From Prevotella sp. (GTDB taxonomy: Bacteria > Bacteroidota > Bacteroidia > Bacteroidales > Bacteroidaceae): a stretch of 53,548 nucleotides of DNA. Under the pieces are notes generated by a model. That model was not told the origin of the DNA and did not search any database. It saw only the letters and a program-made list of their open reading frames with translations. Where the stretch lies: positions 1-53,548 of the forward strand of contig JAFTGB010000062.1 in assembly GCA_017458125.1 (NCBI GenBank), read 5' to 3'. Position 1 is the stretch's first letter, and the number at the start of each line of letters is the position of its first letter. Positions 890-44,420 of the stretch are shown here, in pieces. A program made the position numbers and the translations under genes.

Positions 890-2722
890 TTATTCTCCTG
901 GAAATTCATATACTTTCATCAGCTCATCAACCAAAGCTGTAGTGCGAGTTTTGATGTCCTCAATCGTCCATTTGTCCTTAGTTGCTATTTCTCGATTAAT
1001 CTCCAGACCATTCTTGTAGCCGATGAACCGTTGGCCGTCTTTGCTCTTGCGATCACGTTTTTCTTCGAACGATTTGTTTCCAAGTGTACTATTATAACCC
1101 GTAACAGTAAGATTACCTATCTTGTGAGTATATTCTTCAAGATATTTATTAGCTAACTGTCTGTTGCCACCTGCTATCATATCAACCCAGCATTGAGGGA
1201 TGTTTTCGCCTTCAGGGAAAATATGTTCAATTGTCCAAACAAAGACCTTCTTGTCTGTGCGTCTCCAAAGGTCTGTCCACGTTTCTTGTGTCATGGCCGA
1301 TTCTGCAAGTTTGCATAGGATGTAGCGCGTTGCTCCCACATTATCCTTATATACATCGCCCTCTAAACTGCGGCGGAACTGCTCGTCAGAAGCACAATTG
1401 GTAGGTGTACTCAGTACATCAACAATCAACGACATGACATCATTACCAACAGAATGTAACTCTTCTATTTTACTGATAATATCCATGAAGATGCGTGTTA
1501 AATCGCGTGTGTTGGGATAGTCAGTAATATTTCTGCGAACGAAATATTTAGCAAGCAATCGGATAAGCTGATTGATTTGTTCCTCAGTAACATTAAGTTC
1601 TTCCTTATTTCTCATTAAGTACATGAGAAGTAGGTAAGACGGTGCGCCTTGAATGTGATCGAGGTCTTCCAATGCTTTGCGATAAGTCATCTCCGTGGAA
1701 TCTTGCAGAATGAGCCAAGAATAAATCTGTCCACAGCACAAAATATCCTCCAGGAATGAAGATAAGTTTTTATTAATAAGGCTCTCGAAGATATTAAGTA
1801 AATTGGAGCGAGTGGCCATAACGCCCAATGGGTCCTTCTTTCGGTCGTTGTCACTCTGGAAAGGCTCATTCAAACGATGCTTGAAAGCATTGTAATACTG
1901 GCGGAAGAAGCGCTCCTGTATTCCGTAGTCATCGGATAGGTTGCCAAGTAGCATCTGCCAACGATTGAAGCAGTCGTCAATAGTAAGATTATTACTTTCT
2001 GCCCGAGCCATGATGAGATTCTTCATCAAGTCGATTGCAGTCAAAGGAGTTCCACGGTTATTCAGCGACTCAAACAACACATACGCGTCGGAATGAGTAG
2101 ACACCTCTATCTTTACAAGCATGGCTTGCTTCACCTTATTATACTTGCCCAACAAGAAATTGACAGCATTATTACCATCCATGCCTTCCATCTCCTTATC
2201 AATGCGTTTAAGAAAATAGGTGAAGCAACGGGCAATCTTTCTCATTGGATAATATGGATGCTTAGGAGCAGAAGCCTTTCGCAGTCCTGTCTCATTCATC
2301 AAGTGGTCAAAGTCATCCTTGTTGAAATTCTGTATCTGCGGTACCAACTTCATCTCATTTGGAGAATTCTTGCTTTTCAAGGATTTCCTAAGTGATGGCA
2401 AAACATCTTCGTCATCTTCGCTCAAATCTTCTCTATGTTCCTTCAAACGAGTATAGATGGCTGTCAAGAACAAACTGATGGTTGTTAGACGCTGCTGGCC
2501 ATCTATCACTTCCAAATAAGGATTAATCGCATCTCCCAAAGGAATACATATGATAGACCCAATAAAATACTCGTCGTTATTTTCGCTTATGTCATCGTAA
2601 AGAGCCTCCCACTCACGATAACTCCAGGTATACTCGCGTTGATACTTAGGGATAGTATAATAGAAATTACCATCCGATGAAAGAATCTCGTATATATGAT
2701 ATTTATTAACGCTTTGAATCAT
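890..2722 (-). CDS. DUF262 and DUF1524 domain protein (GmrSD-like)
   Basis: A 610-residue protein with the DUF262 (ParB/Srx-fold NTPase) signature IPKYQREYTW at residues 24-33 and GQQRLTT at about 75-81. A C-terminal DUF1524 HNH-type nuclease module has EHIFP near residue 500 and HKIGNLT downstream. This order is that of single-chain GmrSD type IV restriction enzymes, which cut modified DNA using NTP, and of related phage-defence proteins. It starts 11 bases after the 69-residue gene and is the penultimate gene of the type I operon. Its target modification cannot be read from sequence. Domain call sure, biological role inferred. Confidence 0.9.
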   Translation of the reverse strand: MIQSVNKYHIYEILSSDGNFYYTIPKYQREYTWSYREWEALYDDISENNDEYFIGSIICIPLGDAINPYLEVIDGQQRLTTISLFLTAIYTRLKEHREDLSEDDEDVLPSLRKSLKSKNSPNEMKLVPQIQNFNKDDFDHLMNETGLRKASAPKHPYYPMRKIARCFTYFLKRIDKEMEGMDGNNAVNFLLGKYNKVKQAMLVKIEVSTHSDAYVLFESLNNRGTPLTAIDLMKNLIMARAESNNLTIDDCFNRWQMLLGNLSDDYGIQERFFRQYYNAFKHRLNEPFQSDNDRKKDPLGVMATRSNLLNIFESLINKNLSSFLEDILCCGQIYSWLILQDSTEMTYRKALEDLDHIQGAPSYLLLMYLMRNKEELNVTEEQINQLIRLLAKYFVRRNITDYPNTRDLTRIFMDIISKIEELHSVGNDVMSLIVDVLSTPTNCASDEQFRRSLEGDVYKDNVGATRYILCKLAESAMTQETWTDLWRRTDKKVFVWTIEHIFPEGENIPQCWVDMIAGGNRQLANKYLEEYTHKIGNLTVTGYNSTLGNKSFEEKRDRKSKDGQRFIGYKNGLEINREIATKDKWTIEDIKTRTTALVDELMKVYEFPGE

Positions 2723-2733
2723 GATCTTATGCT

Positions 2734-2943
2734 TTATTTGATTTCATTCCCGTAATAGTTGAACGTATTAGAATTATCGTTCATATTTATCTCTGTAGAA
2801 CTTGTTGTATCATTCTCAAATGCCAGATAACAGATGTCATCGACATTGTTTTCCTGACTTTCCAATTGTGGTGTTGCACTAATAGCATCAATTAGTTCAT
2901 TGGAAAAGCCAACTTCATGTAAAGTGTCTTTTAGATTCTTCAT
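2734..2943 (-). CDS. Small acidic protein of unknown function (69 aa)
   Basis: I do not recognise the family. It is an acidic 69-residue protein with a predicted helical N-terminus (MKNLKDTLHEVGFSNELIDA) and an Asn/Thr-rich, probably disordered C-terminus ending in YYGNEIK. It begins 2 bases after the serine protease stop and ends 11 bases before the DUF262 start, so translation is probably coupled to both. The position suggests an adaptor, substrate or inhibitor linking protease and nuclease, but that is inference from spacing only. Confidence 0.65.
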   Translation of the reverse strand: MKNLKDTLHEVGFSNELIDAISATPQLESQENNVDDICYLAFENDTTSSTEINMNDNSNTFNYYGNEIK

Positions 2944-2945
2944 GG

Positions 2946-3962
2946 TTATCTGGGCATTTGCATTGGAACATTCGTAGCCGCATTTCTAATGATACAATAG
3001 TGTTGAGACAAGAAGATTTTAGCCATTGGCGTATTCTCGAACAACCAATAGAATAAAGCCCACATCCGTCTCATAGCGCGGTCTAAACCATCTATGGATT
3101 CCGAATGCGTAATTTTCAATCTACATTTATTCCATGCTACATCTCTGTTAATAGCATGTCCATGACTCTTCCATTCACTATGCTTACAAAGCAAACTGGC
3201 TATTTCGTCAGCACGGTTCTTTTTGTCTTCTTCTGTTACATCTATACCAGACGAAGAATGTATCATCCAAGTCTTAAACTTATAATTAATCAGATAGTCC
3301 TTGACCATATCCGTTGAATATTTGCTGGCACTTTGAGCCATTCCTATATCCCGAAGGTCAATATTTCGCAACAATTGAACATCTGTCCAATCGGGTTGCA
3401 TGTGTTGTTTTATCTTTTCCTCCCCACGTTTTTGAATATCATCTAATGCCAACAAAATGGATTGGGCTGGAACAAATCTGCCTTCTCGGTTAGGTATTTG
3501 CGGGTCAATGGGACCGAACTTTGATTGCTTTGACATGATTATCTCATCGCCAGACATAATGAAGATTGTTCCAGCACTCATAGCCATATTAAGCAGAATA
3601 AAGTTTACTTTCTCAAAACGAGGACGGAGTGCTGTCACAAAGTTGTTTACCTGATTGGCCAATCCGCCTGGTGTAACGAGTACCACATCTACCTCTCTTA
3701 CATCAGCAGGTACGGAGTTGACCATTTCATTAAATGGCAAATCATCAGAATTATCAATGGCATTGTTTATACCACCTCTAACGACATTGGCAACATAACA
3801 AAGCACATACTTCTTTCTAATTGCCTCCATTTCGGCAATACTGCGTCTAAGTTCGGCAACAAAATTAAGGTTGGGAGCAAATTGATGTCCTACAAGACAT
3901 TCAAATTCCTGGCCGTCTCTCATAACGTCCAATGGAGTGGGAATACTATTGACTGAATTCAT
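2946..3962 (-). CDS. SDH-family Clp-fold serine protease
   Basis: A 338-residue protein of the ClpP/crotonase fold (serine dehydrogenase proteinase, PF01972-like). Visible are the oxyanion-type VTPGG at 96-100, the nucleophile region NMAMSAGT with candidate Ser129, and FGPIDPQI at 149-156, a family hallmark. There is no signal peptide or membrane segment, so it is cytosolic. Its substrate is unknown. It follows hsdS by about 12 bases and is followed 2 bases later by the 69-residue gene. Relatives are often found beside restriction genes. The fold is clear, the role in defence is inferred. Confidence 0.85.
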   Translation of the reverse strand: MNSVNSIPTPLDVMRDGQEFECLVGHQFAPNLNFVAELRRSIAEMEAIRKKYVLCYVANVVRGGINNAIDNSDDLPFNEMVNSVPADVREVDVVLVTPGGLANQVNNFVTALRPRFEKVNFILLNMAMSAGTIFIMSGDEIIMSKQSKFGPIDPQIPNREGRFVPAQSILLALDDIQKRGEEKIKQHMQPDWTDVQLLRNIDLRDIGMAQSASKYSTDMVKDYLINYKFKTWMIHSSSGIDVTEEDKKNRADEIASLLCKHSEWKSHGHAINRDVAWNKCRLKITHSESIDGLDRAMRRMWALFYWLFENTPMAKIFLSQHYCIIRNAATNVPMQMPR

Positions 3963-3974
3963 ATTTTTAGATAA

Positions 3975-5753
3975 TTAGTTGTTTTTATAATCAGGTGCAA
4001 AACCGTTCTCACGCATCCACTGGATGGCTGATAACCAACGTTCTTTTGATATACGCTTCTTTGATTCATGCCAGTTGTTCAGCACCTCATTCACGATGTC
4101 GGCATCTGTGAAAGGTTTGTTACTATGCAGCAAATCTTCCCATGCGCTATAGAGCGTGGCAACGATTTCACAACGCTCTGTGTTTTGCGTCTTGAACGTA
4201 TCAATAATTTTTTCGAATGTGGGCAAAACGGTAGAATAGTATTTGTCAAAATACGTTTTATGCTTGCCGCAGTTCTGCATTGGCACATATCTGTTCCCTT
4301 TCTCTGTCCGCTTCACATCAAACCACTTCTGCTTTCTCAACTGACTATCAATGGAGCGTAGGGCGCGGTTGTCATAAGGACCTGCCGCATCTCTGTGATA
4401 GTGTGAGCCTATGTCTATATGACAAAGACGTTCTGTGAGGAACAGCATCTTCTCCATCTTAACATGACCGAAGGTTGGTTCCTCGCACAGTCTGTCAGCA
4501 ATCTCTGCCGCTAAAACGCTTCTTCGGAAATGGACATTTGCAGATGTGGCTTTAGTCTTGACCGCAGTTTCCACCAGTCTTATTTTACCAGTTAGTAACT
4601 GCTGCATCATGCCTTGCTTTATCTGCTCGTATTTCGCTTTCTTGGCTTCGAGAGCAGAGATTTCGTTATCCATCGAGGTGAGGACAGAGGCGATGGCATT
4701 CTGTTCATCTAATAAAGGTGCTTTCACTATAATGTTAGAGTACTCTCCAATCCACCATCGCTTATGGTCGGTCATCGGAAAGTCTATCATCTGCATGATT
4801 TCAAAAACAAATCGAAGATTGTTTTCTTCATTTCTTAATGTCAACATCTTCATTGCAGAAGACTTAGCCTTGAAAGGGAAATCAACATATTTTGATTCTG
4901 TCACGAAATCATCAAAGATGATTACTGGCAGATTGTTGTATATTCCATTTGGGTCATTTGTATATCCCAAAATAAAAGTTTTACCAGCTGTTAATACAGG
5001 AACCCCATTGTCTGAATAATCTGTTGAAGATACTAAATACTTTGTTGGTTGTTCATATTGCAATATCTCTCCCAACTTCTTTTCCACCCATGGCTCTGAG
5101 AATCCTTTTAGGCGTTTCTTACCTGTAAGGAGTTGCTGCATGGCACCTTGCTTGATGGCACGTTTCTTCTCTATCAGTTTGCCCAGTTCTGAGATTAGGG
5201 CATCAATATTGGAAAGAGCTGTGGCGATACGTGTTTGCTCAGATTTGTCTTTCGGAATTACAACTGACACACCACTTAATATTTTTGTGTTAATTGAAGG
5301 CATTGCAAGGCCGACAGCTACAGATACTACTCTTTTTTTTGCTTCATCTGTTTGTAGATGGTAAGTCAAGTATAATGAATCTATGTTCCGCTTTAGGCGA
5401 ACACGTAATAAACGCCCAGAAAAGAGCCATCCATCTTCATTCTCAGAAACGTAGCTACATCTGTCAACGGAACCAACCCTACTGAATACCAAGTCATTCT
5501 TCTTTAGCACATACGAATTGAGTCTATGGTAATCGCTTTTCCCAACTTTAGGAACACCATTACTTATGTTTATATCAATATGACCGATATGCTCAACAGT
5601 AATTATGGGTACACCATTTAATACATAATCATCAGAATGTAATGCAGACCCAAAGGGACCTGTTTTTACATCTGAGATTTCCCCAATTGTATTTACCTCC
5701 CAATCCTCAGGAATCCTCCCAACCTCTGTATCTTTGAATCTTGTTTCTATCAT
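3975..5753 (-). CDS. hsdS: Type I restriction specificity subunit HsdS with C-terminal extra domain
   Basis: A 592-residue protein, about 180 longer than usual HsdS. Target recognition domain 1 spans about 1-180, followed by a conserved helix ending IKQGAMQQLLTGKKRL. TRD2 spans about 222-372 and is followed by a second copy of that helix (IKQGMMQQLLTGKIRL). From about 405 to the end lies a further domain with FGHVKMEKMLFLTERL and AAGPYD, which resembles DUF4065/Panacea-type domains. HsdS chooses the DNA site for the HsdM/HsdR complex. It overlaps the DUF1016 stop by ATGA. The specificity call is sure, the tail assignment tentative. Confidence 0.92.
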   Translation of the reverse strand: MIETRFKDTEVGRIPEDWEVNTIGEISDVKTGPFGSALHSDDYVLNGVPIITVEHIGHIDINISNGVPKVGKSDYHRLNSYVLKKNDLVFSRVGSVDRCSYVSENEDGWLFSGRLLRVRLKRNIDSLYLTYHLQTDEAKKRVVSVAVGLAMPSINTKILSGVSVVIPKDKSEQTRIATALSNIDALISELGKLIEKKRAIKQGAMQQLLTGKKRLKGFSEPWVEKKLGEILQYEQPTKYLVSSTDYSDNGVPVLTAGKTFILGYTNDPNGIYNNLPVIIFDDFVTESKYVDFPFKAKSSAMKMLTLRNEENNLRFVFEIMQMIDFPMTDHKRWWIGEYSNIIVKAPLLDEQNAIASVLTSMDNEISALEAKKAKYEQIKQGMMQQLLTGKIRLVETAVKTKATSANVHFRRSVLAAEIADRLCEEPTFGHVKMEKMLFLTERLCHIDIGSHYHRDAAGPYDNRALRSIDSQLRKQKWFDVKRTEKGNRYVPMQNCGKHKTYFDKYYSTVLPTFEKIIDTFKTQNTERCEIVATLYSAWEDLLHSNKPFTDADIVNEVLNNWHESKKRISKERWLSAIQWMRENGFAPDYKNN

Positions 5754-6946
5754 TTGCTAATCTCTTTTAACAGAAAGTCTTGAAGAGTTTTCTTGTCGGG
5801 CAGCGAAAGCATATAGGTGGAGACAAACAAGTTGTTGTCCATGCCAGCCAAAGCATACTCCACCATCTTGTCGCCTTTGCGAGTGCAAAGCAGTATGCCC
5901 ACAGGAGGGTTATCCCCAGGGTTCATTTCATTCTCTCTGAAATATGAGACGTAGGCATTGAGCTGACTGAGGTCGGCATGGCGGAACTCGTCATCTTTCA
6001 GTTCGATGATGACATTGCAGTGCAGGATACGATTGTAGAACACCAAGTCGGCAAAGTAGTATTCATCGTCGATAATCATCCGTTTCTGCCGTGCCTCAAA
6101 ACAAAATCCCTTGCCCATTTCGAGCAAAAATTCTTGAAGATGCGTTATCAGGGCATTTTCCAAATCGTTTTCTGTAAATGCTTCAGGACGTAAGCCAAGA
6201 AACTCAAACGAGAACGGATCCCTGATGGTTAATGCTGGCAAACTGTTTTTCTCCGTCCTGTCTATCAGCAATTGGGGATTTTTGCTTACACCTGCACGGA
6301 AATATAGGTTCGATGAAATCTGTCTGCGCAGTTCCTTTACGCTCCAACAACAGCGGATGCACTCTGTCTCGTAGAAGAAACGAGCCAATGGGTCGCCAAC
6401 GGTCATTATCTCCACAAGGTGTGAGAAAGAAAGTTGTGAGATGAGCTTATCAGCCGGAGAGATGAATTTGTCCGATGCCGTCGGACTTATCTCCAATTTC
6501 TCCGACGCTGTCGGGGAAATTGCTAAAGATTTTCCCGACGCTGTCGGGGAAATCACAGATTTATGCGACGCAGTCGCATAAATGTTTCCCGTCAAATAAC
6601 TATATATTTGGGGATAGATGAGATAGAATTTACGGCAACTATAAAGTATTGTTTCATTGATTCCCCTCTTGTTTACCGTCTCTGCCAAACGCTTCAGCAG
6701 TCGGTCGCCATACTTGGCGCGGTCATTGCCATGCTGTTCATATTCCACAATATAGAATCCAATGACATAGTTTCTTATCGTGGCAAAGCGGTTTATCGCC
6801 TTCACGGTTGCCGAATAGGCGGAATCGTGCAGCTGTAACACCAGTTCTGACAGATGCTCGAATGAAAACGCCGTCTCTTCTGCCCAATTATCTGGCAAGT
6901 TATATAGAACAGATATTTCTGTATGGTTTACTTTTTTCTTGTCCAT
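5750..6946 (-). CDS. DUF1016 (YhcG-like) PD-(D/E)XK nuclease
   Basis: A 398-residue protein. The N-terminal YhcG_N-type helical DNA-binding domain covers about 25-120 (SCRKFYLIYPQIYSYL). The C-terminal nuclease domain includes DLVFYNRILHCNVIIELK at about 315-335, giving the D...ExK catalytic pattern. Between them, residues 120-165 hold a repeated linker (ISPTASGK, ISPTASEK, ISPTASDK). Members commonly sit between hsdM and hsdS in Bacteroidetes and are presumed Holliday-junction-resolvase-like accessory nucleases. It ends with an ATGA overlap into hsdS. Confidence 0.88.
   Translation of the reverse strand: MDKKKVNHTEISVLYNLPDNWAEETAFSFEHLSELVLQLHDSAYSATVKAINRFATIRNYVIGFYIVEYEQHGNDRAKYGDRLLKRLAETVNKRGINETILYSCRKFYLIYPQIYSYLTGNIYATASHKSVISPTASGKSLAISPTASEKLEISPTASDKFISPADKLISQLSFSHLVEIMTVGDPLARFFYETECIRCCWSVKELRRQISSNLYFRAGVSKNPQLLIDRTEKNSLPALTIRDPFSFEFLGLRPEAFTENDLENALITHLQEFLLEMGKGFCFEARQKRMIIDDEYYFADLVFYNRILHCNVIIELKDDEFRHADLSQLNAYVSYFRENEMNPGDNPPVGILLCTRKGDKMVEYALAGMDNNLFVSTYMLSLPDKKTLQDFLLKEISK
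6470..6590 (-). repeat. Imperfect tandem repeats coding the DUF1016 linker
   Basis: Several copies of a CCGACGCTGTCGGGGAAAT-like unit, each containing a short palindrome, encode the repeated ISPTASxK segment. Copies differ mainly by substitutions, and the reading frame stays open throughout. Confidence 0.7.
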
Positions 6947-37491: not shown

Positions 37492-39036
37492 TCAGAACGG
37501 CACCTGCGTGTCACGCTCACCTAAGAATGGCGACTCGCTACCTTCCGGCGGGTTGCCGTTTACTTTACTGCCCAAAATGATGCCACCATTGTCGTCCGCC
37601 TCCTGGTGGCCCAAGCGACGGTCCTCAGGGTTTTCAAAACGCGTAAATTCGCCACGGAACGTCAACAGCACATCGCCAGTGGCACCCTTACGATGCTTGG
37701 CAATGATAATCTGAGCCATACCGCGCAGGTCGTGCCCGCTGTCGTCCTGATAGATGTGGTAGTATTCCGGGCGGTGTACGAAGAGCACCATGTCGGCATC
37801 CTGCTCAATGGCTCCTGACTCACGAAGGTCTGACAATTGGGGGCGCTTGCCTTCAAGCCCCTCACGACTCTCCACGCCACGGTTCAACTGCGACAGGGCC
37901 AGAATAGGGATGTCGAGTTCCTTAGCCAGCCCCTTCAACGAGCGCGAGATGGTGGACACCTCCTCTTGACGACTGGAGAAGCGCATGCCGTTGGCATTCA
38001 TCAGCTGCAAGTAGTCTATCATGATGATTTTGACACCGTGTTCACGCACCAGTCGGCGAGCCTTCGTTCTCAGTTCAAACACCGACAAGCCCGGTGTGTC
38101 GTCGACGTAGAGCGGAGCACCTAACAGATTGTTCAAGCGCTTGTCAAGCCGCTCCCATTCATCCGGCTTCAGCTGACCATTGAGAATTTTAGAACCTTGT
38201 ATCTCACAACAGTTGCTGATGAGTCGGTTCACCAGCTGCACGTTCGACATTTCGAGCGAAAAGAAAGCCATAGGAACCTTATAGTCAGCAGCAATATTCT
38301 TTGCCATCGACAAGGCAAATGACGTCTTACCCATGGCTGGGCGCCCGGCAATGATGACTAGGTCAGAGGCTTGCCATCCACTGGTGATGTCGTCCAACTT
38401 ATGATAGCCCGTTGCCACTCCCGTCAGTCCGTCTTCGTTGGAGTAAGCCTTTTGTATGGCATCCACGGCATTACGGATGACAGGGTTTATCTGGGTGTAG
38501 TCTTTCTTCATGTTGCGCTGTCCCAACTCGAAGAGCGCCCCTTCGGCCTCCTGCATCAAGTCGTCTACGTCTACCGTCTCGTCAAAGGCCTTGGTCTCAA
38601 TGACGCTGGCAAAGGAGATGAGTTGTCGGGCCAGCGACTTCTGCGCAATGATGCGCGCATGATATTCGATGTTGGCCGACGAGGCCACCTGACTGGACAA
38701 TTCCGTAATATAGCCTGGACCGCCCACGTCCTCCAAGTCACCCTGGCGGGCCAGCTGTTCGGTCACCGTCCATACGTCAACAGGGTTTTCATGCATCGAC
38801 AGGTCACGGATAGCCGTGTATACTTTCTGATTACGTGGCTCGTAGAAACTTTCCGGCGAAAGAATCTCGCACACAATGGCGTAGGCATCCTTGTCTATCA
38901 TCAGCGCACCTAACACGGCACGCTCCATGTCCGTAGCCTGTGGTTGCACATGGGCGTAGGCATTGTCGACGGCCATCTGACGACGCTGCCCGTTACGGCG
39001 CTGTCCGCCGCTATTGTTGTTTGACTGTTCTGGCAT
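37492..39036 (-). CDS. dnaB: Replicative DNA helicase DnaB
   Basis: A 514-residue RecA-fold hexameric helicase. The N-terminal domain has TDMERAVLGALMIDKDAY. Walker A is GRPAMGKTSFALS, Walker B IIMIDYLQLM, and SQLNRGVESR and DLRESGAIEQDADMVLFVHR are the later signatures. The C-terminus is a short polar tail. The stop lies 4 bases from the stop of the convergent TPR gene. No intein. Confidence 0.95.
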   Translation of the reverse strand: MPEQSNNNSGGQRRNGQRRQMAVDNAYAHVQPQATDMERAVLGALMIDKDAYAIVCEILSPESFYEPRNQKVYTAIRDLSMHENPVDVWTVTEQLARQGDLEDVGGPGYITELSSQVASSANIEYHARIIAQKSLARQLISFASVIETKAFDETVDVDDLMQEAEGALFELGQRNMKKDYTQINPVIRNAVDAIQKAYSNEDGLTGVATGYHKLDDITSGWQASDLVIIAGRPAMGKTSFALSMAKNIAADYKVPMAFFSLEMSNVQLVNRLISNCCEIQGSKILNGQLKPDEWERLDKRLNNLLGAPLYVDDTPGLSVFELRTKARRLVREHGVKIIMIDYLQLMNANGMRFSSRQEEVSTISRSLKGLAKELDIPILALSQLNRGVESREGLEGKRPQLSDLRESGAIEQDADMVLFVHRPEYYHIYQDDSGHDLRGMAQIIIAKHRKGATGDVLLTFRGEFTRFENPEDRRLGHQEADDNGGIILGSKVNGNPPEGSESPFLGERDTQVPF

Positions 39037-39058
39037 AACTCAATTGTTTTTCGGACTG

Positions 39059-39066
39059 CAAAGGTA
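39059..39066 (-). promoter_or_regulatory. -7 element of dnaB
   Basis: TACCTTTG on the reverse strand, 23 bases before the dnaB ATG. No clear TTTG at -33. Confidence 0.65.
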
Positions 39067-39145
39067 CGTAAAAACCTTGATACTTCATGCACTTTTGAGA
39101 GAATTAACGCAAATCACACTTTGTTACCCAAAAGTAACAAACACA

Positions 39146-39898
39146 TCATTCTTTGTTTACGTTTTCAATGATTCCCTTAATCACATCACTCATTCTCTCG
39201 CTCTTTATCTGTGTACGATAATGCACATTAACACCAGCTTCTTGCATGCACTTGAAGAAAACCTTGGCACAGGCAATCTTCACCTTTTCATCTGGCCGAA
39301 GGTCATTTTCTAAACTATTAACATCTTTTGTCTCGACTACAAGATTTAGCTCCTTAGTACCGTCTTCACGCTCTACAATATACATAAAATCCGGACTATA
39401 GCTCGAACTCGCAATTGTAGGTATGGCAATACTGCTCCGGGGTATCTTGCCAAATACTGTAACTTTGGCTATACCAACTTGATTGATGATATTGTCTTTC
39501 TCCAAAGGAGAGTCATAGGCCACCGTATCATAAAGGTAAGTTCCTAAAGGGTTAATATCCTTTTCTATATTCACTCCTATCAATCCTGCCTTGATGGTTT
39601 GGTTTGGCTTGCCGTCATAGGTCAACTTCGTGTCTTTAGGGATAAAGTCGGTCTTCGAATAATTGAACTTGCCCATCAGATTCGTTGTAAACCAGTCGTA
39701 TATGGCTTGAATGTTCTTGTTAAGCGAGTACTCGCTGAACCACCTCTTCGTATCTTCACCCTCATGCGTTTTTGCGTATTCAGTGGTTGCATGATGAATG
39801 ATGGAGATAGGTACGGCTGTTGCATTACTTAGCCGGCGAAGATACTCTCCGTATGGGATATGACGGCTAATGACCGGTATTTCGTTAGTGTTATTCAC
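39146..39898 (-). pseudogene. C-terminal fragment of type III restriction subunit Res
   Basis: A 250-residue open frame equal to the C-terminal quarter of Res. IPVISRHIPYGEYLRRL matches an internal Res segment, and the PD-(D/E)XK nuclease is complete with YSPDFMYIV (Pro169-Asp170) and VVETKDV (Glu189, Lys191). The whole SF2 helicase part is missing. The frame begins 6 bases after the methylase stop, so it is transcribed behind the type II cassette. It may be a relic or could still be made as a free nuclease domain. Confidence 0.85.
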
Positions 39899-39904
39899 AT
39901 CCTC

Positions 39905-41176
39905 CTACCAATTTAAATTTATGCGGTTTCTTCTTACGAATTCATTGAACACAGCTTCTACCACAGGTACAGACACCGAATTTCCAAATTGCTTATATGC
40001 CCAAGCATCTGAAGGATGTAGTCTGAATGTGTCTGGAAACCCTTGCAATCTTGCACATTCACGTGGCGTAATATGTCTGGCTCTGTTATGCTGAATCACA
40101 CCAAGCCGATTGGCATCAGATGAAGTCAAGGTAACAGAAATACTTTCAGGGTCCAAGAATTTGAATACCTCAAAAGACATATTGCCACAAACAGGATTGT
40201 ATCTTCCCTCACTATTTACCTGAAGATACCGTTTGTCTATCAGCGAAGCAATGACTTCCTCAATGTCTGACGCAGTATAGAACGTCTTGATCTGTTCCAG
40301 CGTAAGTTTCTTTCCGTCTTTATCTTTTCCGAATATGGGCTTGCGACGATTAAGTATCAAGGCATTCATAAATCGAATTTCAGCATCAGAACATTTACCC
40401 TTCATTCCTAATTCCCAAGAATGAAGTGACTGTCCTCCACGATAGTCAATGAGCCGATAGCCATGAAGAACGCTCAAGTCATCACCTACAACTTCACGAA
40501 GCATCTGCTGGAATCTGTCAGAACAATAATACTTCTCATCAACATCTGGCTCCAGCACGTCACCCACACAACATTTCACTTTCTCGCCAAACAATGAAAG
40601 TTCAAGAGAATTCTGTTTGTACTTGTGAGAATCAGCTGAACCAAGGTCGGTAGAAAGATCCATTTCAGGAGTTGCCCCCAAGATGCCAACGATATAAAGA
40701 CGTACACGATTCTGAGGAACACCAAAGTTACTGCTATTCTGTAGCAAGTCGTATGTGCCATAACCTAAACCATGAAGTTTATCCATGATGGTATTGAAAG
40801 TGCGTCCTCCATCATGAGTGTAAAGACCACGCACGTTTTCAAGCAAAAAGGCCTTGGGACGATATTTCTCAAGTAGCCGCTCTATTTCAAAGAATAAAGT
40901 ACCTCTTGTATCGCCAAAGCCCATGCGTTTGCCAGCGTAGGAGAATGGCTGACATGGAAAACCACCAAGCAATAAATCAAATGGCTCCACTTCATCAATC
41001 AGCTTCACATCACCACTGGGATGTTCGCCGAAGTTGAGTTGATAGGTTTCACAGGCTTTTTCGTTAATCTCGCTTGAAAGCACACATTTTGACTCTATCC
41101 CGTTTTTAGATAGAGCCTGGCTAACTCCCAAGCGGATACCACCTACACCTGCGAACAGATCTATATATTTTATCAT
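39905..41176 (-). CDS. DNA cytosine-5 methyltransferase of a type II system
   Basis: A 423-residue m5C methylase with all main motifs: I DLFAGVGGIRLG at 6-17, IV GGFPCQPFS with catalytic Cys75, VI ENVRG at 113-117, VIII QNRVRLYIVG, IX TPRECARLQGFPD, and X QFGNSVSVPVVEA. The variable region between VIII and IX, about 190-350, should carry the target recognition domain; the target cannot be read. It overlaps the endonuclease stop by ATGA. Intact. Confidence 0.95.
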   Translation of the reverse strand: MIKYIDLFAGVGGIRLGVSQALSKNGIESKCVLSSEINEKACETYQLNFGEHPSGDVKLIDEVEPFDLLLGGFPCQPFSYAGKRMGFGDTRGTLFFEIERLLEKYRPKAFLLENVRGLYTHDGGRTFNTIMDKLHGLGYGTYDLLQNSSNFGVPQNRVRLYIVGILGATPEMDLSTDLGSADSHKYKQNSLELSLFGEKVKCCVGDVLEPDVDEKYYCSDRFQQMLREVVGDDLSVLHGYRLIDYRGGQSLHSWELGMKGKCSDAEIRFMNALILNRRKPIFGKDKDGKKLTLEQIKTFYTASDIEEVIASLIDKRYLQVNSEGRYNPVCGNMSFEVFKFLDPESISVTLTSSDANRLGVIQHNRARHITPRECARLQGFPDTFRLHPSDAWAYKQFGNSVSVPVVEAVFNEFVRRNRINLNW

Positions 41177-42222
41177 CCTATTTTCTCCTTGATAAATTCA
41201 ATCAGCAAATCAAACTCAGAGGGTGTGTAAGCCACATTGCAATGACTATTGTTGCACATATCATTCATCGCAGCAGGACGTGAAAAATTACCAACTCCAT
41301 CAATAATATACGCTACAAAACACCTTTTGTTGTTTGTGTTACGGAATCGAGCCTGTGCTTCTCGTGCTTTTCTTTCTGAAACGCTATTTGATGTTTCTTG
41401 GAATGACACCTCAATACCAACATATTTCTTATAACGACCATCGTCGTCCTTACGGTCTACTACAATATCGAAGGTGGCATCTTTGTCATCATCTAATTTT
41501 ACTCCAGGAATTTTCCCATTATTTACTAAGTTATAATTATTCCCCAAACGCTCTCTCATATAGTTTAAGGCATAGACTTGTGCATAATTACCAAGGTCTG
41601 TTGCTGTCTTTCCTGCAATAATCCTACTCACTCGGATATAATTCTCTCTAACATATTGCTTAATTTTATCCTCTTCTCCAAGATTTTCATAAGCATTACA
41701 TTTGTATAGAATCGCACGATTAATTTCTATCGACGATGCAGAACCATAGGTAAGAAGCATAATAAGGTCTTTGCATAATTTTTTATCTTTGCAAGCTACC
41801 TGCAGATTCTCTTTAGTATCAATCTGCATTCTTTCATTATCAAGTTTGCCTTTAATGGGTAATACGGAAAATTTGTAAACATACTTTTTACGTCCCAACA
41901 TATATGTTAGTTCATTGCTGGGGAACAACTCTTTGAAAGTTGTATTAAAACGTTGAAGAGGTTCAGAACCAACGTCTGTTAGAAGAGCCAAATGTTTTAA
42001 AAACAGATGGTATTCAAAATCTGAAGCATCAAGCAGGCTGAAAAGTTTGTCTGGCTTATTCCGATCTGCCAATGTCAGCAGAGAAATAAACTTTTCCTGA
42101 GAATCCAGCAAATATTGCAAGATACTAACTTTCATAGCCTCATCTCTTACATCCTTAGGCCACCACTTACATCCAACTTTCTCTAAATCCTTTACGGAAC
42201 GTATATACCTATCGTCGTTCAT
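41173..42222 (-). CDS. PD-(D/E)XK type II restriction endonuclease
   Basis: A 349-residue protein whose C-terminal third holds a nuclease pattern: ATFDIVVDRKD (Asp252), then GIEVSFQETSNSVSERKA (Glu271, with S/Q in place of the usual Lys). The N-terminal 230 residues are helical. It directly precedes and overlaps the methylase gene, which is the main argument for its role as the cognate endonuclease. Transcription order is R before M. Specificity unknown. Confidence 0.8.
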   Translation of the reverse strand: MNDDRYIRSVKDLEKVGCKWWPKDVRDEAMKVSILQYLLDSQEKFISLLTLADRNKPDKLFSLLDASDFEYHLFLKHLALLTDVGSEPLQRFNTTFKELFPSNELTYMLGRKKYVYKFSVLPIKGKLDNERMQIDTKENLQVACKDKKLCKDLIMLLTYGSASSIEINRAILYKCNAYENLGEEDKIKQYVRENYIRVSRIIAGKTATDLGNYAQVYALNYMRERLGNNYNLVNNGKIPGVKLDDDKDATFDIVVDRKDDDGRYKKYVGIEVSFQETSNSVSERKAREAQARFRNTNNKRCFVAYIIDGVGNFSRPAAMNDMCNNSHCNVAYTPSEFDLLIEFIKEKIG

Positions 42223-42249
42223 AATTTGTATTTTTAATGCTTTTAAAGT

Positions 42250-42534
42250 TCATATACCATATTTCAAGGCGAAGTAGTTTACCACCTCGGGAATATATTT
42301 CTTGTAGGAAGGTTGGTTGCTAATACACCAATCTTTAAGCTCGTTTCTGTCCTTAAAACCTTTTATGATAGTAGGAAAGTATGGATCCATAATAAGACTT
42401 ACTTCTAATTCCAGCGCATCAACAAATTGTCTCGGCGTCAAGATTCCAAGTTTCTTGTGCCGTATCTTTCTGTCCAAATTTATATCTTCGAAGGTCTTCC
42501 CGATTTTTTTACCTGTCTTTAAGTCAACAATCAT
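42250..42534 (-). CDS. Unrecognised 94-residue protein of the type II cassette
   Basis: I do not recognise a family. It begins MIVDLKTGKKIGKTFEDI, has several charged helices and ends in VVNYFALKYGI. Its ATG follows the upstream stop by one base, and a strong Shine-Dalgarno sequence AAAGGAGG lies at about 42543-42550 on this strand, unusual for Bacteroidetes. It ends 27 bases before the endonuclease start. It could be a controller, an antitoxin-like protein or a passenger. Confidence 0.6.
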   Translation of the reverse strand: MIVDLKTGKKIGKTFEDINLDRKIRHKKLGILTPRQFVDALELEVSLIMDPYFPTIIKGFKDRNELKDWCISNQPSYKKYIPEVVNYFALKYGI

Positions 42535-42535
42535 A

Positions 42536-43081
42536 TTAGCATGCCTCCTTTCTATAGTCGTTGAATATTTTACTGCACGTGCTGCCGTCGTTGAAACTGA
42601 GAATACGCTCAGCTATCTCCTCTGCAATATTCAGTTTTTCTGCTAATTCTTCTTTCGTGAACTTGAATTTGTCATTGTAGACAAACCCATCCGAACCTGT
42701 ATTATACGGTGGGTCAATATAGATACATTTCACCTTTCCGGCATACGATTTGGCAAGGTGTTTCAGTGCGTCAAGGTTATCACCACTGATGTATATGTTC
42801 TCACTTTTGATGTTTTCTGGCTTACTATTATGTACTTCGTCTGGCACAATAACCATTGTCGACTCCATACCTGTCAGCATCCTGGCATAGCTTTTGCATA
42901 GAAAATCAAAGCCCTGATTCTCCTTAACCAAGTCCACTTTGTCTGATATCAAAGACTCGAACTTTGCCATGTCGAACTTCCCCTCACTATTGAAACAGTC
43001 AGCAAAGTCTCTGTGCAGGAGTTCCATCACCCCGCTGTTGGGTCTCACTTTTTTGTTGTTCTCGGTTATATTCTTTATCAT
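42536..43081 (-). pseudogene. N-terminal fragment of type III methyltransferase Mod
   Basis: A 181-residue frame. Residues 1-163 match type III Mod: GDNLDALKHLAKSYAGKVK, the catalytic YIDPPYNTGSDGF (DPPY 123-126), and FTKEELAEKLNIAEEIAERILSF. After Phe163 the sequence leaves the family; the last 18 codons (about 42539-42592) are foreign. The remaining two thirds of Mod, with the SAM-binding site and target recognition domain, are absent, so it cannot methylate on its own. It is the first gene of the hybrid locus. Confidence 0.85.
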
Positions 43082-43173
43082 ATCGATTTATGTTTTATCA
43101 AAGCGCCTGGTGTCGCTTTTCCAATATGTAGTGTCACTGTCCTGTGGCCGAAGCCTTGCAGACATAGACGATG

Positions 43174-43181
43174 CAAATATA
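43174..43181 (-). promoter_or_regulatory. -7 element upstream of the mod fragment
   Basis: TATATTTG on the reverse strand gives a leader of about 90 bases to the mod ATG. No TTTG at the right -33 distance. It is the only promoter-like site I see for the whole hybrid restriction locus. Confidence 0.5.
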
Positions 43182-43379
43182 CAAAATCTTTTGCGAAAAG
43201 AGTCCTTTCTGAGCGAAAAAGTACAAAAAAAACTATTTCACTTGCAGAATTGAAATTTAACGTTTATTTAGCATCCTATTCGTTTTTATCTTTCTCATTA
43301 GCCTCTTCTGCGGTAATTCAAGGTAAAATTGCAGTTTTAGAATTTTATATTAATTTTTAAAGCATTTTACATGAAATTT

Positions 43380-43555
43380 ATCAGCAACAGCATCAAGAAT
43401 CATCAGCGACGGTGGCAAAAAGAATTAGCGACGGTGGTAAATTTCATGGCTGACGGCTGCAAATTTGATTGGCCGATTTGATAATACGGATGATGTTTTT
43501 TACCAAAATGGGGCATAAAATTCGGTACCGCGGGGCATAAAATTCTAATGCGCTG
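43380..43555. repeat. Array with 22-base periodicity
   Basis: Eight consecutive 22-base blocks start at 43380, 43402, 43424, 43446, 43468, 43490, 43512 and 43534. Blocks 2 and 3 share AGCGACGGTGG, blocks 3 and 4 share TAAATTT/CAAATTT, and blocks 7 and 8 share GGCATAAAATTC, all in register. Blocks 5 and 6 are diverged. The 43182-43640 interval contains no gene. Confidence 0.65.
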
Positions 43556-43640: not shown

Positions 43641-44420
43641 TTACTTGGTGAGCAGCTGATCAATGGTCAGCTGACTGTTGGGTTTCATCATACGGCTGAC
43701 ACTGTCTACAAAGACGTTGCTGAAGACGGGACGGCCCATCACCTCGTTGACAATCCACTGGATGCGGCCCATGTGCCTGTCACGCTCTGCCTGGTCATGG
43801 GCCAGCCGCTGCGGCAACGGATAGACACTGAGCAGATAGAAAGCCAAGCAGTCTGGCACTATCATGTCGCGCACCATCATGCGCCGCTGCTCGACGGAAT
43901 AGTGCTTCTGGTAGAAAGGATAGTCTTCTCCGAGATACTTGTCCAGGCTGATACCCAACGTCCCGTTTCCCACTACGATACTTTGGTCAAAGGAACCTAT
44001 CTGCGTATACACCAGCGGTATCTCCAGCGTCGGCAGTTTCTCTTTCAGTCGTCCGAAGGCATCGCTAAGTGCGGCTTCCAGGTCGGAGATGTCACTGTAC
44101 TGTTGCTGAACATCGCCAAGCATGTGCTGCAGCGTAGAATCCTCAAAGAAATGCAGGAACTTGACATTGATGTCCGGAGCATTCACCTTGCCCAGCCGCA
44201 ACATATCTTCAATCAGCGTGCGCGTCTGCATGGGATAGGTCATCTTCATCTGCTGTAAAGCCGAATAGTCGCCTGTTGTGAGATAGAGGTTTTCAACGCG
44301 GTCGTAGCGCTCTATACTGATCTGCACGTCTCCTGCATCACGGTTTTTAGGCTTCAGCTGCCACTCGCAACCGACGCAAACCATCATGACAAAAAACAAT
44401 ATGCCGTAGATTTTATTCAC
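43641..44420 (-). CDS. GldB-like lipoprotein
   Basis: A 259-residue lipoprotein from a GTG start at 44420, with lipobox VCVGC at about residue 14-18. The mature part has the GldB pattern: ISIERYDR, LPTLEIPLVYTQIGSF, LGISLDKYLGEDYPFY and MVRDMIVPDCLAFYLLS. GldB is an envelope protein first known in gliding motility and kept in many non-gliding Bacteroidetes. It is transcribed from the promoter at 44452-44483. Confidence 0.85.
   Translation of the reverse strand: MNKIYGILFFVMMVCVGCEWQLKPKNRDAGDVQISIERYDRVENLYLTTGDYSALQQMKMTYPMQTRTLIEDMLRLGKVNAPDINVKFLHFFEDSTLQHMLGDVQQQYSDISDLEAALSDAFGRLKEKLPTLEIPLVYTQIGSFDQSIVVGNGTLGISLDKYLGEDYPFYQKHYSVEQRRMMVRDMIVPDCLAFYLLSVYPLPQRLAHDQAERDRHMGRIQWIVNEVMGRPVFSNVFVDSVSRMMKPNSQLTIDQLLTK

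Follow-up and report, generated by a model that had tools for sequence, protein, structure and literature searches.

How does a complete type II restriction-modification (R-M) system come to lie between the two ends of a type III operon? The question is raised by a stretch of Prevotella sp. DNA of 53,548 nucleotides (assembly GCA_017458125.1, contig JAFTGB010000062.1, positions 1 to 53,548), here called the window. Between 39146 and 43081 five minus-strand open reading frames (ORFs) follow each other in mod-to-res order: the start of a type III Mod, an ORF of 94 amino acids (aa), a BanI-family endonuclease, a C5 methylase and the end of a type III Res. A preliminary description of the window had read them as a type II cassette in the middle of a mod-res operon; the five ORFs lie where it placed them, on that strand, and the family matches agree. 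We consider it likely that the mod-res operon was hollowed out and refilled with the BanI-type pair, and that its ends then became homology arms for exchange between copies.

The ends of a type III operon around a BanI-type pair

The Mod piece (42536-43081) matches the PADLOC model MTase_III at positions 1-179 of 657 (1.1e-56), and the Res piece (39146-39898) matches PRK15483 at positions 753-985 of 986 (2.4e-64). Among 100 relatives searched, the window's own genome included, a Mod match is found in 46 and a Res match in 21, and one genome, G020, is far closer to both fragments than the remaining relatives. It carries (contig C79, stretch L056) an intact mod at 984-2969 (661 aa) and an adjoining intact res at 2982-5987 (1001 aa), to which the two fragments are 93-94% and 91% identical at the protein level. 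Chance is an unlikely source of the arrangement, because both pieces are this similar to one operon and stand in the right order and on the right strand. The closest relatives found are thus full-length adjoining genes and not short stand-alone proteins, and both fragments match type III families, in line with the preliminary description. A second intact relative, G291, has the same mod-res operon. Directly behind the intact G020 res there is a HicB-family gene (PF05534, L056 6004-6351).

By alignment, similarity to G020 stops at window position 42572 on the Mod side, where 170 codons are left, and resumes at 39883 on the Res side, where 245 are left. The truncated Mod and the Res end seen earlier are therefore real, with other numbers than first given (Mod residues 1-163 with a break near 42590, and 250 Res residues from 39898). 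The absent middle of the old operon corresponds to G020 1494-5249, about 3.75 kb, and about 2.7 kb of other DNA stands in its place. This is a substitution at an R-M locus with remnants on both sides. The replacement is also visible in base composition: G+C is 34-43% over 39000-43499 and at least 50% in most of the DNA to either side. The features of the block and its flanks are:

43082-43231, minus strand: region upstream of mod, likely including the promoter (blastn pairing to L056 834-983, alignment)
42572-43081, minus strand: 5' arm, Mod codons 1-170, cut off (95.1% nucleotide identity to G020)
42536-42571, minus strand: 11 foreign codons and a stop past the Mod joint (alignment end at 42572, translation)
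42250-42534, minus strand: 94-aa ORF, residues from about 18 on resembling a small protein of viral contigs
41173-42222, minus strand: BanI-family type II restriction endonuclease, full length (PF24447; 96% aa identity to locus L065)
39905-41176, minus strand: m5C DNA methyltransferase, full length (PF00145; 90% aa identity to L065)
39884-39904, minus strand: linker with an in-frame GTG start at 39898, five foreign codons ahead of the Res arm in all
39615-39883, minus strand: 3' Res arm, proximal part (about 98% identical to G020)
39146-39614, minus strand: 3' Res arm, distal part, from a different res allele and holding the greater part of the endonuclease domain (about 81% identical to G020)
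37492-39036, minus strand: dnaB, one flank of the inserted block (88% aa identity to genome G007)
43641-44420, minus strand: GldB-like lipoprotein gene, the other flank (PF25594, 4.8e-36)

By sequence the outer fragments belong to the EcoP15I kind of type III system, and the intact G020 Mod has PF01555 at residues 117-457 and the EcoP15I C-terminal domain (PF18273) at 556-650. Compared with such a system, the window has lost the helicase of Res, and of Mod the C-terminal domain and the larger part of the methylase domain. Its 170 Mod codons do not hold the methylase plus C-terminal domain of a complete type III Mod; the ResIII helicase, at residues 81-261 in G020, is gone, and the Res fragment begins at residue 757. 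Seen against the G020 domains, these include the parts that had been reported missing. The Res nuclease domain was likewise correctly described as open and intact: PF19778 (RE_endonuc) is matched at positions 3-105 of 108 (3.3e-25) within residues 121-231. The remnants probably no longer work as a type III system.

The filling itself is complete. The endonuclease matches PF24447 at positions 2-337 of 338 (5.6e-113), and the methylase matches PF00145 at 2-322 of 324 (4.1e-88) and TIGR00675 at 1-328 of 329, so that the endonuclease and complete m5C methylase first noticed between the fragments are both present nearly end to end. The last 4 nucleotides of the endonuclease gene are also the first 4 of the methylase gene. 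A full-length endonuclease with a complete neighbouring DNA methyltransferase fits a BanI-type R-M system, and the order from enzyme to methylase is identical in the three other loci with a whole enzyme, L065, L066 and L067. BanI recognises GGYRCC, the predicted site of recognition and methylation for this pair. The DNA common to the window and L065, a stand-alone BanI locus, runs from 39906 to 42235 and comprises the two genes with the 13 bases that precede them. The window pair differs from other BanI-type systems in that it stands behind a Mod remnant and the 94-aa ORF, and the sequence common to L065, L069, L070 and G236 ahead of the enzyme start is missing. This lack suggests indirectly that the new pair may be read from the old mod promoter, as the preliminary description had proposed, and the pair is predicted to be active.

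The 94-aa ORF lies outside the segment shared with L065. No Pfam family matches it above cut-off, and with the limits applied NCBIfam, PADLOC and PHROGs give none either. From about residue 18 onward it has relatives at 13 viral loci (39-52% identity), and one unannotated phage record matches it at 42% over 77% of its length; among plasmid records there is no match. Within 119 genomes it is found in the window's own and in one other (E 0.003, two stops). Despite these viral relatives, transfer by phage is not claimed: neither the BanI enzyme nor the Res arm was found in viral contigs, which give one distant hit for Mod and leave a phage vector unsupported. The phage records show no BanI match. 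Plasmid relatives of BanI are distant (28 records, 15 of them listed at 30-34% identity) and uninformative.

Divergence along the arms and other loci of the BanI enzyme

A likelihood scan along the Res arm places a step in the divergence between the window and G020 at about 39614, some 270 bases from the joint. The proximal part has 6 mismatches in 285 positions vs 83 in 435 in the distal part (Fisher 1.6e-13). The proportion of synonymous differences (pS) is 0.05 over the 95 proximal codons vs 0.80 over the next 93, with distal values of 0.74-0.80. The control pair G020-G291 is even (74/285 vs 61/279, p 0.28). As the step in pS is found between the window and G020 and not in the control pair, we conclude that homologous recombination has cut inside the Res arm. 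On the Mod side the arm has a pS of 0.14 to G020, and the last 140 bases 5' of the mod start are 79-89% identical in 30-base bins. A second exchange point may lie near the mod start codon, a weak indication because non-coding DNA may drift differently.

The BanI enzyme has a match in 5 of 398 genus genomes, two at full length and three cut at about residues 31, 84 and 195. When genome contigs were scanned with short peptide patterns, 7 of 22 candidate stretches were confirmed. They correspond to six distinct loci (three full length, three cut) in metagenome-assembled records, several of them from rumen by title. Since three of the six repeat genus hits by their coordinates, there are eight distinct loci including the window. 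The enzyme is whole in the window, L065, L066 and L067, and cut in L068, L069, L070 and G236. Two stretches were left out of the eight: G006:C102, where the methylase is at the contig end and the enzyme side is off the contig, and G236:C11, which has a different methylase tail.

In the four cut loci the start of the enzyme is followed by another module. L068 and L069 keep enzyme residues 1-197, followed by a 38-residue tail, a DUF6722 protein, Mrr and the methylase end from about residue 323. G236 has the first ~30 enzyme residues, 81 other codons and then Mrr. L070 keeps 84 residues from the start of the enzyme, behind which stand the final 20 codons of an Mrr, then DUF4160 and DUF2442 genes, presumably a toxin-antitoxin-like pair, and a methylase tail. 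Because the end of an Mrr is also kept, L070 represents two layers of replacement. A methylase tail remains in three of the four cut loci and is clear in L070. In L069, L070 and G236 the similarity to L065 also extends about 15 to 95 bases 5' of the enzyme start.

Some smaller observations were made at these loci. The nested L070 block seems to be bounded by direct repeats, and the minus-strand ORFs that flank it (L070 5796-5990 and 7339-7983) share, by eye, a near-identical stretch of about 39 residues. The Mrr of G236 (L064 1843-2640) is by eye without about 23 catalytic-domain residues compared with L069, and its Pfam Mrr_cat match is also shorter. Elsewhere in G236 (L204 2725-4850) a tail of another C5 methylase, about 50 residues, stands directly 5' of a large gene with the look, by eye, of a McrB-type GTPase, perhaps one more replacement at a methylase gene.

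The insert is shared by L068 and L069, joints included, and it is less diverged than the arm around it. The two loci differ at 166 of 510 positions (32.5%) in the enzyme arm vs 156 of 1248 (12.5%) in the insert (Fisher 3.5e-21); the intact control pair L066-L067 is even along its length (0.23, 0.21, 0.24). At synonymous sites the L068-L069 difference amounts to 0.89 for the arm and 0.36-0.51 for the insert. Relaxed selection on dead arms does not explain the excess, as the synonymous difference would not rise from it. With an arm synonymous difference of 0.89 vs a non-synonymous one of 0.16, most of the divergence of the arms seems to date from when they were working genes. The swap of one system into another, with ends able to act as homology arms, had been proposed in the preliminary description, and it is supported both by the breakpoint in the Res arm and by this single insert within two more diverged arms.

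Proposed route and alternative explanations

In the route that we propose, a rare non-homologous event would put a new defence module into an old operon, and the first joining in the window was probably of this kind. The small gene with relatives in viral contigs would have come along in the incoming DNA. The old ends would be kept, here the upstream region and 170 mod codons on one side and 245 res codons on the other, and would turn into homology arms, so that a cell with a related old operon could receive the module by an ordinary double crossover. The filled form would then spread by exchange through the arms, and later modules would repeat the replacement inside the previous one. Enzyme arms of 197, 84 and about 30 residues would fit a shortening of the arms over such events.

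A tentative extension, which we hold to be quite possible without preferring it, is that displaced restriction genes in rumen Bacteroidales leave cut ends which make up a self-renewing slot, with nested replacement and arms that can shorten. A module landing inside such a slot would keep the outer gene ends, become exchangeable between strains by homologous recombination through them, and could be hollowed out itself by the next. Examples of the nesting would be type III around BanI, BanI around Mrr, and BanI and Mrr remnants around DUF4160/DUF2442.

A number of results, together with those on the genomic place given in the last section, weigh against the hollowing out and exchange proposed here. 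For type III there is one case: among the 29 of 396 genus genomes that match Mod at 1e-20, the window's frame alone is cut, with 183 aa vs 629-840 aa in the other 28. The recombination at the Res arm may have taken place in the lineage of G020 instead of the window's. In the tree of the BanI arm a sister relation of L068 and L069 is not rejected (AU p 0.107 for DNA, 0.229 for protein), and exchange between them is therefore indicated by the difference in divergence alone. The methylase arm is frameshifted in L068 and reduced to about 20 recognisable residues in L069, and no methylase match was seen in G236:C153. L068 is also without the upstream sequence common to L065, L069, L070 and G236. 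To these are added the viral contigs, with no BanI enzyme, no Res arm and a single distant Mod, and the fact that most relatives are draft metagenome assemblies. Four loci with short-frame Mod hits in the wider lists (L051, L013, L041, L025) were inspected as further cut Mod genes and are not counted; they are 27-49% identical to the reference.

The locus could also be a one-off accident, in which a non-homologous insertion of the BanI pair was accompanied by a deletion and the old ends survive as inert debris; the step in the Res arm would then be unrelated and belong to the G020 lineage. The one replacement among 29 Mod loci agrees with this, as do a breakpoint whose direction is not fixed and the decaying remnants in L068 and L069. 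However, an accident does not account for four other loci in which an enzyme start is followed by other modules, nor for an insert and joints shared by L068 and L069 inside more diverged arms, and we regard it as unlikely.

An assembly chimera of the metagenome bin is very improbable. The genome is a draft in 86 contigs and the relatives from the contig scan are in metagenome-assembled records, but two false joins would have to restore the order and strand of one operon, and the separate records L068 and L069 have identical joints. It is most doubtful of all that the Res endonuclease or the Mod fragment still serves the new system, for example as an extra nuclease or a regulator: both frames are open, the Res nuclease domain is whole, and the window branch has 6 non-synonymous and 6 synonymous changes in Mod, equal to the G020 branch, and 5 and 24 in the Res arm vs 13 and 31, but these counts include time before the event, Mod and Res are without most of the methylase domain and the helicase, and of the two methylase remnants that of L068 is frameshifted and that of L069 almost lost. 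Selection on the remnants was also considered from these counts and dropped, as the changes are few and do not separate the time before the event from that after it.

Known systems and the place beside dnaB

Replacement of R-M loci is known from Helicobacter and Campylobacter. According to the parts of the study consulted, at PabI-family R-M loci in these genera part of one R-M system has given way to another, with disrupted neighbours left behind, an hrgC segment stands in place of a PabI pair, two conjugative elements are nested in the R.PabI gene, and homologous recombination is proposed as the route of transfer (PMC4615327). The window resembles these loci in that one restriction system has replaced part of another at the same place. 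In the same parts of that study, however, it is conjugative elements and not defence modules that are nested, and it is not demonstrated that the arms are the outer ends of a displaced operon (PMC4615327). Unlike in the PabI-family loci as described there, one enzyme family here fills one locus and is itself hollowed out at others. Islands of defence genes bounded by conserved anchor genes are well known. In the enteric immigration control region, as far as its description was available to us, defence genes also turn over between fixed boundaries, which are conserved anchor genes there and the cut ends of displaced defence genes here (PMC12707154). Among the titles and first parts of abstracts listed on R-M replacement and nesting, none describes defence modules nested between the ends of a displaced system, which is no proof of absence; the PabI-family study comes closest (PMC4615327). 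Serial nesting through leftover gene ends is thus new as far as this literature goes, and the recurrence at other loci is more interesting than the single case.

The fast turnover of R-M systems, although mobile elements rarely carry complete ones, has been called an "intriguing question" in the portion of the survey that we consulted (PMC4176335). If the proposed route is true, arms made from the gene ends of the previous system would be a simple way of turnover without a mobile element, and any strain with a relative of the old system would be a ready recipient. A single event would remove the old defence and install a new one, perhaps under the existing promoter. Searches for whole defence genes would also miss a readable history of earlier systems around the present ones.

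The preliminary description had suggested comparison with an intact mod-res operon at the same place next to dnaB. None was found between the GldB gene and dnaB among the listed relatives. The G020 operon is elsewhere: in blastn of the window against its 11.8-kb contig the two arms are the only shared parts. G007, the sole listed relative with its best dnaB and GldB matches side by side, has them 177 bp apart and no room for an operon. Given this spacing, the window has an insertion relative to G007 between about 39069 and about 43731; poor conservation at the end of the GldB gene makes the upper edge uncertain. Either the swap was made beside dnaB or the filled operon came in whole. Between the GldB flank and mod, 5' of the latter, the 14-base motif GGGGCATAAAATTC is present twice, 22 bases apart (window 43510-43545), and we take it, with nearby stretches, to resemble by eye the repeated ends of an IS21-type element.

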